Made by a program: the position numbers and the translations under genes | Assembly (NCBI GenBank): GCA_000961585.1 | Contig: LADN01000058.1 | Coordinates: 1 to 49,014, forward strand | Direction of reading: 5' to 3' | Length of the DNA stretch: 49,014 nucleotides | Origin: Peptococcaceae bacterium BRH_c4a | GTDB lineage: Bacteria; Bacillota; Desulfotomaculia; Desulfotomaculales; Desulfocucumaceae | Notes under the pieces: model-generated | Told to the model about the DNA's origin: nothing | Database searches by the model: none | What the model saw: only the letters and a program-made list of their open reading frames with translations | Part shown: in pieces, positions 11,069 through 43,165 of the stretch | Position numbering within the stretch: the stretch's first letter is position 1 | How the letters are laid out: every line of letters begins with the position of its first letter

Positions 11069-11308
11069 ATGGCCAAACCTATTAGAGAAGGCCTGTCGTA
11101 CAGCCAGAGGGACATAATGGAACTGCTGATTGATTTTTCGGCCTTTAAGGACAGGGTAGAAAAAAAATTCCGGGATGTGTCAAAAGAATTAGACGGCAAG
11201 CCCAACGAGCATGAGTTATGGGTAAACCTATACCTTCTTTCAACCGATTATGCTGAGGAACTGACCAATAAAAAAGCAAAACATGAAGTGGTTCAGAAAA
11301 TATCATAA
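11069..11308 (+). CDS. Small protein of unknown function, 79 residues
   Basis: A short, mostly helical, highly charged protein with GGGGGTG as ribosome binding site ahead of ATG. It contains QRDIMELLIDFSAFKDRVEKKF and HELWVNLYLLSTDYAEELTNKK. No signal, membrane segment or Cys is present. I do not recognise the family. It is monocistronic; a repeat element begins immediately after the stop codon, with its first hairpin only a few bases away. Confidence 0.6.
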   Translation: MAKPIREGLSYSQRDIMELLIDFSAFKDRVEKKFRDVSKELDGKPNEHELWVNLYLLSTDYAEELTNKKAKHEVVQKIS

Positions 11309-12619: not shown

Positions 12620-14854
12620 ATGGCATCCCGGAGTAAGAGAAAAGTATCGGTGAAGAATACCCCCACATCAAACGGCAGGCCGGATAACAACATGACCTAT
12701 GAAATAATGGGCATAGCCGTAATTACACTGGCTTCGCTGGGCGCAGCCAGTCTATTTACCGATGCCCTGGGCGCAGTGGGTTCTCTATTGAGCCGGGGTA
12801 TGGCGATACTGGCGGGGGAGAACAGGTATCTGATTATACTATCCCTGGTGCTTCTGGGTGTCAAACTGATTAAGGAAAAGAGATCATTCCGTATGACTCC
12901 CCGGGCCATAGGGTTTGTGATTCTGGCACTGGTTTTTCTCACCCTAGCCCACATTGAGGCGCCGCGGGACAGCCTTTTCAGCTACGGCCTTAAGGGCCGG
13001 GGCGGGGGAATTGCCGGGGCCGGCCTGGCATATGCCCTGACAGCTTGCTTCGGAATGGTGGGATCCTATATTATACTGTCATCCCTTTCACTGGTGTCCC
13101 TGATACTGATCACCGGTTATACTCTGGCTCAACTTGGTTTTCTGGCCGCACTCAGAGCCCGGAAGGCCGGCAGCAGGATATGGAAATGGATATTTAACTT
13201 CCTCTTTGAAGATATTGAACCTGAGGAAAAAGAAGATAACCGGAACACCATGGTCATCGGCGGAAACCCCGGGGACAGGTTGTCAGAGGTAGCGGCCACA
13301 CTGGAGACAGTCCCCTCACCCTCGACGGGGGATAACCCCGGGCAGAAAAAGAAAAACTCCAGGGTACGGGCGGACATCCCGGACATCCCCCCCATGTCCC
13401 TGGCTGACGGGCGCATTTACCGCCTGCCCCCCATTAGTCTTTTAAAGCCCCCGGAAAAAACTAAAAATGAGGTTTCGAATAAGGAAATAGCGGATACGGC
13501 CCGTTTGTTGGAATCCACCCTGGAAAGTTTCGGTATAATGGCCAAAGTTACCGGGGTGTCGGTGGGGCCGGCCATTACACGCTATGAAATACAACCTCCG
13601 CCCGGCATCAAGGTCAGCCGCATTGTAGGCCTGGCCGACGACATAGCTCTCAATCTGGCTGCCCCGGGAGTGCGCATAGAGGCGCCTATCCCCGGAAAAG
13701 CTGCAGTTGGCATAGAAGTTCCCAACAGGGAAATTTCCCCGGTAACCTTAAGGGATCTGATTGAAAGCAAGGAATTTACAGACTCCCGGTCTAAACTCTC
13801 GGTGTCCCTAGGTAAGGATATAGCCGGAACCACTGTGGTGACCGACCTGGGAAAAATGCCTCACCTCCTGGTGGCCGGCGCCACCGGGTCCGGGAAGAGT
13901 GTCTGCATAAACACACTTATAGCCAGCATACTCTTCAAAGCAACCCCGGACGAGGTAAAACTCCTGATGGTGGACCCCAAAATGGTAGAGTTGGCCACTT
14001 ATAACGGCATACCTCACCTGATTTCCCCGGTGGTAACCGACGCTAAAAAGGCAGCCGGAACCCTTCGCTGGGCAGTGAAGGAAATGGAGCGCCGCTATGA
14101 GCTGTTTGCATCGGTGGGGGTCCGGGACATCGGAAGATATAATAAAAGCTGTAAGCCCCCCGCTGAAGATGACAGACAGTCCCTCCCGTATATTGTTATT
14201 ATCATAGACGAGCTGGCTGACCTGATGATGGTGGCCCCCGCTGATGTGGAAGATTCCATCTGCCGCCTGGCCCAAATGGCCAGGGCTGCCGGGCTGCACC
14301 TGGTGATAGCAACCCAGAGGCCCTCGGTTGATGTTATCACCGGACTGATTAAGGCCAATATACCCTCAAGGATTTCTTTTGCAGTCTCTTCCCTGGTGGA
14401 CTCCCGCACAATTCTGGACATGGGGGGAGCTGAGAAGCTTCTGGGAAGAGGCGATATGCTGTTTTTCCCGGTGGGCGCAGCAAAACCTGTAAGGCTCCAG
14501 GGAGCATACCTCTCGGACACTGAAGTTGAGTGCCTGGTTTACCACCTGAAGGATCAGGCCCAGCCCGTTTACGACGATCAGGTTCTCACCATGCCACCGG
14601 CCGAAGACAGAGACTGTAACGCGGAGGAAGATAACGATGACCTGCTGGTTCAGGCAGTCAAAATTTTTATTGAAAGCGGCACGGCCTCAATTTCCCTGCT
14701 CCAGCGCAGACTCCATATAGGATACGCCAGGGCTGCCAGGCTGGTTGACATAATGGAAAGGCGGGGAATTGTGGGTGGTTTCGAGGGAAGTAAACCCCGT
14801 AGTATCAAAATGTCTCTGGATCAATTCCAGAAGACCTTCAGAGAACAGATGTAA
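12620..14854 (+). CDS. ftsK: DNA translocase FtsK/SpoIIIE
   Basis: Hexameric motor that pumps chromosomal DNA through the septum in division or into the forespore. The 744-residue protein has an N-terminal membrane part with about four hydrophobic segments (residues 30-190). A short charged linker follows, then the RecA-like motor with Walker A GATGSGKS near residue 420, Walker B YIVIIIDELADLMM, and GLHLVIATQRPSVDVITGLIKANIPSRISFAV. The C-terminal winged-helix gamma domain (SISLLQRRLHIGYARAARLVDIMERRGIVG) reads KOPS/SRS-like sequences. The ribosome binding site GGAGGAGG is strong. Whether it fills the SpoIIIE or vegetative role cannot be told; a paralog could exist elsewhere. Confidence 0.95.
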   Translation: MASRSKRKVSVKNTPTSNGRPDNNMTYEIMGIAVITLASLGAASLFTDALGAVGSLLSRGMAILAGENRYLIILSLVLLGVKLIKEKRSFRMTPRAIGFVILALVFLTLAHIEAPRDSLFSYGLKGRGGGIAGAGLAYALTACFGMVGSYIILSSLSLVSLILITGYTLAQLGFLAALRARKAGSRIWKWIFNFLFEDIEPEEKEDNRNTMVIGGNPGDRLSEVAATLETVPSPSTGDNPGQKKKNSRVRADIPDIPPMSLADGRIYRLPPISLLKPPEKTKNEVSNKEIADTARLLESTLESFGIMAKVTGVSVGPAITRYEIQPPPGIKVSRIVGLADDIALNLAAPGVRIEAPIPGKAAVGIEVPNREISPVTLRDLIESKEFTDSRSKLSVSLGKDIAGTTVVTDLGKMPHLLVAGATGSGKSVCINTLIASILFKATPDEVKLLMVDPKMVELATYNGIPHLISPVVTDAKKAAGTLRWAVKEMERRYELFASVGVRDIGRYNKSCKPPAEDDRQSLPYIVIIIDELADLMMVAPADVEDSICRLAQMARAAGLHLVIATQRPSVDVITGLIKANIPSRISFAVSSLVDSRTILDMGGAEKLLGRGDMLFFPVGAAKPVRLQGAYLSDTEVECLVYHLKDQAQPVYDDQVLTMPPAEDRDCNAEEDNDDLLVQAVKIFIESGTASISLLQRRLHIGYARAARLVDIMERRGIVGGFEGSKPRSIKMSLDQFQKTFREQM

Positions 14855-14948
14855 ATCATCCTGTACATTGCCCTCTTCCCTAACCAGTTAAAATATGCAA
14901 TAATATTTATGTAAACCTCAACCCAGATCATGAAAAGGAGGTGCAGGT

Positions 14949-15800
14949 ATTAAAAATAAATTTTTTGGCCTGGTGATTTTATCCATTCTGACTCTGACTC
15001 TGTACTGGCTGTATACCGGCAGTTCCGGTGAACCTCAGAACATCCCGGACATTAAAAAGGTGGAAGCCCAGAAGGAGTCAATGGATTTAGCCATATACTA
15101 TTTTAAAATAACTGGTTCTGACGCTTATCTGGTAAGGGAAATACACAGCGTTCCCTACAGCGATGACGGACCCGGCTCGGCAATAAAGGAGCTTATCGGG
15201 GGAGAGCCTAAAACCCCGGGGGCAGAAAGAGTTTTGCCTGCCGATACCAGGCTTCTGGGTATCAGCATAAAAGATAGCCTGGCCATGGTTGATTTTTCCT
15301 CAGAGGTCCTAAAGACCGGTGTTGGATCAACCGGAGAAGCCCTTGGCATTCAGAGTATCGTCAATACACTGACCGAATTTCCCCAAATCCGGGAGGTTTC
15401 CTTCCAGGTGGAAGGAAAGTCCGACGGACGGGCCATGGACTGGTGGGGACATGTTGGACTTTACGGACAGCCTTTTAAAAGAAACCTGGAAAAAGTACAC
15501 CAACCGGCCATCTGGGTTACTCATCCCGTGGCGGGGCAGGTATCCGGAGTCCCTCTGCTGATTAAGGGCAGCGCCAGAATTCCCGGAGGCGGAGTTAAGG
15601 CCCGTCTACTGGACGAGAACGGCAAAAAAATAGCCGAGAGCACCGCCGCCTCACCCACAACTCCAGGCAGGGGCGGCTTTGAAATCAGTATAACCTATAC
15701 CCCTCCGGGAAAAGGAAAAGGCACCCTCGAGGTTTTCTGGAACAGTTCCGGGGAAGAATCCCCCCGGGATACCGTAAAAATACCGATACAATGGCCATGA
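14949..15800 (+). CDS. GerMN/Gmad2 domain protein (spore germination type), apparent AUU start
   Basis: From 14949 the protein has 283 residues. It has a classical signal/anchor (residues 1-20, Lys-rich start then FFGLVILSILTLTLYWLY), no lipobox Cys, a GerMN domain around residues 45-165 (AIKELIGGEPKTPGAERVLPADTRLLGISI..., SIVNTLTEFPQIREVSF) and a C-terminal Gmad2 immunoglobulin-like domain (IWVTHPVAGQVSGVPLLIKGSARIPGGGVKARLLDENG). Start choice: AAGGAGGTG lies about six bases before an in-frame ATT whose codons give the positively charged N-terminus of the signal. The first conventional codon, GTG at 14973, is about 30 bases from the ribosome site and would remove those charges. It follows ftsK by about 95 bases. 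Confidence 0.85.
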   Translation: MKNKFFGLVILSILTLTLYWLYTGSSGEPQNIPDIKKVEAQKESMDLAIYYFKITGSDAYLVREIHSVPYSDDGPGSAIKELIGGEPKTPGAERVLPADTRLLGISIKDSLAMVDFSSEVLKTGVGSTGEALGIQSIVNTLTEFPQIREVSFQVEGKSDGRAMDWWGHVGLYGQPFKRNLEKVHQPAIWVTHPVAGQVSGVPLLIKGSARIPGGGVKARLLDENGKKIAESTAASPTTPGRGGFEISITYTPPGKGKGTLEVFWNSSGEESPRDTVKIPIQWP

Positions 15801-15869: not shown

Positions 15870-16025
15870 TTGTCCAGGCAGAAGCAGTTTGTACAGGAAA
15901 TACCCAGATCCGACAATATTGAGGTGATCACCGAAAGGGTGCGAAAAGATCTGGCTTGGGTACTGGTGGGAATACTGGTTGCAGTAAGTTCCGGACTGGC
16001 AGTAGGTAATTTCTTTAAATTTTAA
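15870..16025 (+). CDS. Small membrane-anchored protein, 51 residues
   Basis: Starts at TTG with CAAGGAGG seven bases upstream. The first ~27 residues are charged (SRQKQFVQEIPRSDNIEVI then TERVRKD), followed by one membrane helix, LAWVLVGILVAVSSGLAVG, and a short NFFKF end. I do not recognise the family. The strong ribosome site, codon use like the neighbours and a terminator just after the stop support a real gene. It is probably cotranscribed with the GerMN gene, 70 bases upstream. Confidence 0.7.
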   Translation: MSRQKQFVQEIPRSDNIEVITERVRKDLAWVLVGILVAVSSGLAVGNFFKF

Positions 16026-34041: not shown

Positions 34042-34083
34042 ATTAAGAGTTACTCCTCCAAAGAGGTTCTAGAATTATTATAA
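34042..34083 (+). pseudogene. hicA toxin remnant, first 13 codons only
   Basis: ATT AAG AGT TAC TCC TCC AAA GAG GTT CTA GAA TTA TTA TAA reads IKSYSSKEVLELL-stop, which matches the usual HicA opening (MKSYSSxEV...LL) except that ATG is now ATT. A GGGGGAA ribosome site is still present. The remaining ~60 codons, including the catalytic His, are gone, and hicB begins 29 bases later. An ATAGG-N12-CCTAT inverted repeat upstream (33989-34010) may be the old operator. Confidence 0.7.
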
Positions 34084-34112: not shown

Positions 34113-34598
34113 ATGGATAAATATATTTACATTGCAGTCTTTGACCCGTGTGAAGAAGGTGGTTACTGCGTTACCTTTCCGGATTTACCGGGCTGCATTA
34201 CCCAGGGCAATAACATCGGAGAAGCTCTGGATATGGCAAAAGAGGCAATGAGTCTTCACCTTTACGGCATGGAAGATGACCATGATCCCATCCCACCACC
34301 CACGTCTCCAGAAAAAGTAGAGGTACCCGACGGTGGATTTGTCAGCCTGATCGAAGTTTGGATGCCGCCGTTTCGAGATAAAATGTCCAATAAGGCGGTA
34401 AATAAGATGGTTACCCTCCCTAAGTGGCTTAAAGACATGGCAGAGCATGAGAAGGTTAATTTCTCCCACATTCTCCAGGACGCCCTGAAAAGCTACTTGG
34501 GCGTTACTGGTAAAGACCAGATAAAAAAACGCCCTGAAGGGCGCTTGGGAATCCAGAATCCAGAAGCCAGAAGCCAGAATGGTGACAGGCTGCCTTAA
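34113..34598 (+). CDS. hicB: HicB-family antitoxin, orphan
   Basis: Antitoxin of a HicAB system: it binds and neutralises the HicA RNase and represses its own promoter. 161 residues: the partial RNase-H-like HicB fold (YIAVFDPCEEGGYCVTFPDLPGCITQGNNIGEALDMAKEAMSLHL), then a ribbon-helix-helix part (MVTLPKWLKDMAEHEKVNFSHILQDALKSYLGV, residues ~106-138). The last ~25 residues (KKRPEGRLGIQNPEARSQNGD...) are translated from the adjoining repeat element and are not family sequence. Its toxin partner survives only as a 13-codon remnant. The ribosome site TTGGAGG is good, so it may still be made and act as a DNA-binding protein. Confidence 0.88.
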   Translation: MDKYIYIAVFDPCEEGGYCVTFPDLPGCITQGNNIGEALDMAKEAMSLHLYGMEDDHDPIPPPTSPEKVEVPDGGFVSLIEVWMPPFRDKMSNKAVNKMVTLPKWLKDMAEHEKVNFSHILQDALKSYLGVTGKDQIKKRPEGRLGIQNPEARSQNGDRLP

Positions 34599-34980
34599 AA
34601 GCGACCCTCAAGCGACCCCACAGCGACATGCAGTGAGGGGGAGTGATTTAAGTCCGTGCGGAATGTACCGGAGGCTGCTACTGTCTCTTAACGACCGAGC
34701 CTACGGAATGCCGAGCCGGCTGCAGGACGCAGCCGGAAGCCGGAATCGGCGCAAGGACGCGGCGTTGGAGGCGGTCGGTATTCCGTTGGCGACCGAGTTT
34801 AGAGACAGTTGCAGCAGGAGGTAATGCAGGCCGGACTTAAATCGCTCCGCCTACCCATTAGCGACCATGCAGTGACCCTCAAGCGACATGCATGAGGGGG
34901 GAGGGGTTTAAGTCCAGCCGGAGGATAAGCAGATCGGACAAAAAACCCCTTCGCCGACCACGGAGCGACCCCGAAGGAAT
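34524..34980 (+). repeat. Structured intergenic repeat, full copy plus internally deleted second copy
   Basis: Left hairpin cgccctgaagggcg, heptads, GCGAC flank and full core 34641-34847. Immediately downstream, after another GCGAC unit, a shortened core of the 18.4 kb type runs from about 34896 to 34955: the outer-stem left arm (gaggggtttaagtcc), ccggaggataagcagatc, then ggac and the right arm, without the ~150 bases of inner stems. The full core differs from copy 1 at two inner positions, both giving G-U pairs. Confidence 0.8.
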
Positions 34981-42766: not shown

Positions 42767-43165
42767 AAAAAACGCCCTAACGGGCGTTGCCGTCTTGCAG
42801 ACGGCGGAATCCAGGAGCCAGGAGCCAGAAGCCAGAATGGTGACAGCCTGCCTTAAAAGCGACCCTCAAGCGACCCCACAGCGACATGCAGTGAGGGGGA
42901 GTGATTTAAGTCCGTGCGGAATGTACCGGAGGCTGCTACTGTCTCTTAACGACCGAGCCTACGGAATGCCGAGCCGGCTGCAGGACGCAGCCGGAAGCCG
43001 GAATCGACGCAAGGACGCGGCGTTGGAGGCGGTCGGCACTCCGTTGGCGACCGAGTTTAGAGACAGTTGCAGCAGGAGGTTATGCAGGCCGGACTTAAAT
43101 CGCTCCGCCTACCCATTAGCGACCATGTAGAGACCCTCAAGTGACCCAGGAGCGACCCCCAAAAA
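42767..43165 (+). repeat. Structured intergenic repeat, full copy
   Basis: Left hairpins cgccctaacgggcg and gccgtcttgcagacggc, heptads, GCGAC flank, core 42899-43105 and a second imperfect bracket (gagaccctcaagtgaccc). The core is nearly identical to copy 1; one inner position (T to C in the third stem) breaks a pair. The right flank diverges after 43150. It lies upstream of trkA in the opposite orientation. Confidence 0.83.

Follow-up and report, generated by a model that had tools for sequence, protein, structure and literature searches.

The question raised by this locus of Peptococcaceae bacterium BRH_c4a is at which codon translation of its sporulation-type GerMN-Gmad2 gene begins, given that an extended Shine-Dalgarno (SD) sequence is followed closely by ATT. 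By the window we mean the whole stretch of DNA that was analysed, 49,014 nucleotides in length; the coordinates of the features discussed are collected in Table 1. Both domains of the encoded protein passed their Pfam gathering scores of 23 and 25.7 (Germane, PF10646, 1.9e-21 and 77.2 bits; Gmad2, PF10648, 8.5e-16 and 58.5 bits). The dN/dS between the window and its relatives is about 0.1-0.2, which identifies a working gene under purifying selection and rules out a pseudogene or a decaying gene. The genomic neighborhood is shared in part, with ftsK also lying upstream of the ortholog in G001, G002 and G007 and a homologue of the 51-aa membrane protein also lying downstream in G002 and G007.

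Table 1. Features of the start region, its neighbors and the further candidate genes (window positions, or positions within the survey locus where one is named)
Feature	Position	Strand	Remarks
ftsK/spoIIIE, upstream neighbor	12620..14854	+	
Out-of-frame ATG mini-ORF, MKRRCRY stop	14930..14953	+	overlaps the SD
In-frame TGA	14931..14933	+	rules out any upstream start; read from sequence
Extended SD, AAGGAGGTG	14935..14943	+	from sequence; duplex with 16S tail -14.0 kcal/mol
Spacer CAGGT, 5 nt	14944..14948	+	7 nt from end of GGAGG to start codon
CDS, 283 aa + stop: N-terminal signal/anchor, GerMN (PF10646), Gmad2 (PF10648)	14949..15800	+	
Proposed AUU initiation codon	14949..14951	+	aligned ATT, ATC, ACG or CTG in four family relatives
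Rival GTG start	14973..14975	+	own SD absent, charged n-region lost; from sequence and duplex energies
51-aa membrane protein, downstream neighbor	15870..16025	+	TTG start, normal SD
tldD/pmbA	L142 1301-2683 (G000 C37:41301-42683)	minus	also L227-L230, L238
uvrC	L159 17788-19734	minus	ATC
FAD-linked oxidase	L155 17072-18487	plus	ATA
dctM	L134 11217-12536	plus	ACG
Phage portal gene candidate	L149 14077-15561	minus	
Strong-SD candidate	L135 5126-5623	minus	
Strong-SD candidate	L106 2773-3780	plus	
Strong-SD candidate	L119 1667-1975	plus	

The sequence-only reading had placed the ribosome binding site just ahead of ATT AAA AAT AAA, and the sequence agrees: the frame that opens after the TGA reads AAA GGA GGT GCA GGT ATT AAA AAT AAA TTT TTT GGC CTG GTG. 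The SD ranks among the strongest of the 71 orthologs that we collected, and its spacing of 7 nt is the modal one in the BRH_c4a genome (92 of 372, followed by a spacing of 8 with 72 of 372). Reading the sequence directly from 4 to 20 nt past the SD, we found no NTG in any frame. Use of this SD by another frame was rejected on that ground and because the ORF from ATG 14930 runs across the SD without having one itself; this mini-ORF, whose TAA shares one base with the ATT, is probably incidental. The stability of mRNA structure around the start was not unusual (z 0.84) and was set aside as an explanation.

Orthologs were gathered across the whole order, which gave 71 loci, and all possible starts of each were scored by the energy of the duplex with the 16S tail. 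The family set consists of the five genomes holding an ortholog, one genome per species: the window genome, G001, G002, G005 and G007. None of these five orthologs has an SD-supported canonical start. Their SDs range from -13.2 to -14.3 kcal/mol and are followed at the modal spacing by a near-cognate codon, namely ATT in the window and in G007, ATC in G005, ACG in G001 and CTG in G002. Their best canonical starts score only 0 to -1.7 kcal/mol, with the exception of one internal ATG (-6.0 kcal/mol) that falls inside the hydrophobic core. Outside the family, 63 of 66 orthologs start with ATG, GTG or TTG behind an SD at least as strong as -5.2, the other three being truncated or unresolved, and the median SD of -8.6 kcal/mol is weaker than that of the family (Mann-Whitney p 1.4e-4). 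Thus a non-canonical codon is kept in five of five family members while its identity varies among near-cognates, and it is not kept in the order's remaining families, where ATG, GTG or TTG serves as the start. Because the species are related, the five orthologs do not count as five independent events.

Read from the near-cognate codon, the N-termini of the family (KNKFF, RKLFL, KKIFR, QKRIL and QKWII after the start) are ordinary signal peptides, each with a charged n-region (KNK, KK, RK, QKR, QKW). Synonymous divergence of the window from its relatives is at or close to saturation (dS 1.4 to 2.7), so the missing canonical codon does not go back to one recent mutation. The comparison with close relatives that the sequence-only reading had proposed as a check therefore favours a true non-AUG start.

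How unusual this arrangement is was addressed with a survey of 1.37 Mb and 889 genes, about 39% of the organism's own genome, in which genes were filtered for a strong SD and no canonical start. An SD of at least 9 nt without a canonical codon at usable spacing, and otherwise unexplained, was found only for infC and for the GerMN-Gmad2 gene; the other long-SD cases were dismissed, since they have ATGs at 12-13 nt or, once, are an SD-like stretch inside rsmH. The arrival of infC, which begins with ATT (GGAGGTG-ATATAT-ATT), at the top alongside the GerMN-Gmad2 gene validates the filter. This positive control begins with ATT, ATC or ATA in 29 genomes examined, with one (G009) ambiguous. A scan of G005 (about 100 kb) and G007 (200 kb) gave no case besides gerMN, except for one weak AAG.

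A version of the scan based on duplex energy yielded further candidates, of which tldD (tldD/pmbA) is the best. In the same five family genomes GGRGGTG is followed after 6 nt by ATA, ATA, ATA, ATC and ATA, and G016 has ATT; the SDs reach -14.0 to -15.0 kcal/mol and there is no SD-supported ATG, GTG or TTG. Sampled tldD orthologs from elsewhere are mostly canonical with weaker SDs (p 8e-5), and in G004 an ATG occupies this position. The start of tldD is probably a second conserved non-canonical one. In tldD of G073 (L315) it is an ACG that stands at the proper distance from the SD, and an ATG follows soon after. For uvrC, the FAD-linked oxidase and dctM, the near-cognate codon is confined to BRH_c4a, and the relatives have ATG at the place aligned with it. 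Four more candidate loci (L149, L135, L106 and L119) show a strong SD followed by ATT, ATA, ATC or CTG without an SD-supported canonical start; for some of them the sampled relatives have no ortholog, or one whose N-terminus does not lend itself to comparison. Several survey loci were discarded since a canonical start is available: L093 has a TTG adjoining the SD, L127 and L096 have an ATG 2-3 codons on, and L150, the minus-strand rsmH of L155 and L152 were dropped for the same reason.

Three other explanations of the start were weighed. The gene could start at GTG 14973 (or CTG 14970) without an SD, leaving the upstream SD as a relic, and an automatic annotator would indeed pick this GTG, which is the first canonical in-frame codon and the only one within the signal region. 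The sequence-only reading had named it as the next usable start, too far from the SD and leaving the signal uncharged, and the figures bear this out: it lies 31 nt from the GGAGG core, its best own SD is worth -1.5 kcal/mol, and its product would be MILSILTLTLYWLYTG, without charge. The relatives have no equivalent GTG, and the SD has been kept in five genomes despite mostly saturated synonymous divergence, so we consider this start very unlikely. A sequencing or assembly error hiding a true ATG, or a very recent loss of the start in BRH_c4a, might be entertained because the species is represented by a single assembly. We give it the slimmest chance of all: ATG is also missing in the four relatives, so a base-calling error at 14949 is probably not the cause, and the strong SD fits long-term compensation.

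The real start of the family could also be a GTG inside the SD itself (GGGGGTG), which would make the near-cognate codon residue 4 and the window gene a frame-shifted exception. Four of the five family orthologs (G001, G002, G005 and G007) do have this GTG in frame, with the near-cognate codon 6 nt downstream, and it is also in frame in the tldD genes of six genomes and in several of the other candidates of BRH_c4a. The excess of in-frame GTGs exceeds what the spacing rule alone predicts, which leaves room for a possible use of GTG at those sites. Such a GTG would, however, lack SD support (0 to -3.9 kcal/mol). In the window, unlike in the four relatives, it is out of frame and comes directly after the in-frame TGA, which excludes it there, and it is excluded for uvrC and dctM, whose ATC and ACG have no such GTG ahead of them. 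Isoleucine codons exactly 6 nt after GGRGGTG occur at 8 of 28 gene starts compared with 12 of 192 sites inside genes (p 0.001, a value that, like the other survey p-values, is descriptive because thresholds were set during the work), and ATG occupies that place at 6 of the 28. Among the other candidates of BRH_c4a the gap between this GTG and the isoleucine codon is 6 in eight cases, 5 in one and 7 in none; if GTG were the start, there would be no evident cause for an enrichment confined to the third codon. The known AUU starter infC shows the GTG in frame in some genomes and out of frame in others, and a GTG start need not be invoked for it. Taken as the start of the family, the GTG inside the SD seems to us a slight prospect, falling between the two preceding explanations.

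We therefore regard it as very probable that the GerMN-Gmad2 gene is translated from AUU 14949, a very rare start codon that the extended SD holds up, and we infer that this codon is used in vivo. The near-perfect SD at modal spacing would hold the 30S subunit and so let the initiator tRNA use a near-cognate codon, and the product would be fMet-KNKFFGLVILSILTL, with a normal signal/anchor. The AUU would lower expression to a fraction of that of an AUG start, IF3 would discriminate against it as with infC, and the amount of this spore or envelope protein that is made would then track IF3 activity. Judging from the class of the codon, IF3 control of the gene is plausible; an altered IF3 as the cause was rejected, since the family's IF3 sequences show nothing out of the ordinary. 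Judged by the alignments, the arrangement seems to have been maintained and not to be a slip of sequencing.

Elsewhere in the window, the sequence-only reading had drawn a parallel to a hicA remnant at 34042 with ATT where ATG is expected. The motif is present (GGGGG-AATGAAGC-ATT AAG AGT TAC), but the parallel fails: the frame meets a TAA after 13 codons, and since it is a truncated, dead fragment its ATT proves nothing. The remnant (34042-34083) precedes an intact hicB-like antitoxin (PF15919, 34113-34598). A 300-nt stretch occurs in three copies with 96-98% identity (1-300, 34597-34896 and 42855-43154), with shorter related pieces on both strands at 11308, 16620, 18319, 38820 and 46062, and has the look of a repeat element dispersed in the BRH_c4a genome.

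The swapping of ATT, ATC, ACG and CTG behind a super-strong SD, over mostly saturated divergence, suggests selection for weak initiation. A tentative reading, to which we give about one chance in three, is that this branch of spore-forming Firmicutes might keep a small set of genes on near-cognate starts, selected for low initiation and possibly governed by IF3, whose codons drift but are kept from AUG. The set might comprise infC, gerMN and tldD and, in BRH_c4a, also uvrC, the FAD-linked oxidase and dctM; its codons would be AUU, AUC, AUA, ACG and CUG, held by extended SDs, and annotation pipelines would mis-start such genes. The comparative test is simple (a strong SD, modal spacing and no NTG), tldD was also found by it, and it becomes possible to test how far IF3-gated translation extends in spore formers.

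The AUU start of infC, the gene of IF3, is well known in Escherichia coli and generally. The window gene resembles it in having a codon of the AUU class behind a strong SD, as does infC of the BRH_c4a genome itself; it differs in that infC closes a feedback loop on IF3, which the GerMN protein cannot do. The sequence-only reading had treated infC as the known AUU case, which was too narrow, as others are documented in Staphylococcus aureus (cvfC1, ccpN and citZ) and in Streptomyces (sigR) (PMC13009471, PMC5472188). The S. aureus starts, AUU in cvfC1 and AUA in ccpN and citZ, lie behind extended SDs and initiate in reporter assays at about 10-30% of the AUG level, and the codons of cvfC1 and ccpN are conserved, that of ccpN between genera (PMC13009471). 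In sigR the SD AGGAGGTG precedes a GTC, rarely GTT, that is conserved over species, and repression by IF3 was shown with infC mutants (PMC5472188). Initiation at cvfC1, ccpN and sigR is weak and IF3-sensitive, and the extended SD compensates (PMC13009471, PMC5472188).

The window gene shares with the S. aureus cases a conserved non-canonical codon and an extended SD, and with sigR a strong SD and a non-canonical start kept across species with a minority variant. The S. aureus genes are different ones, and the GerMN start is predicted from sequence; sigR encodes a sigma factor whose repression by IF3 has been demonstrated. Compared with both, the codon of the GerMN-Gmad2 gene itself varies, drifting among four near-cognates (ATT, ATC, ACG and CTG) within one family and never becoming ATG in the five genomes. 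The protein has the same two Pfam domains as the GerM and GerMN-Gmad2 proteins of spore formers, although the members in the other families of the order, unlike those of the window family, have ATG, GTG or TTG starts. In every feature that can be judged from sequence, the window gene fits the extended-SD, non-canonical kind of start.
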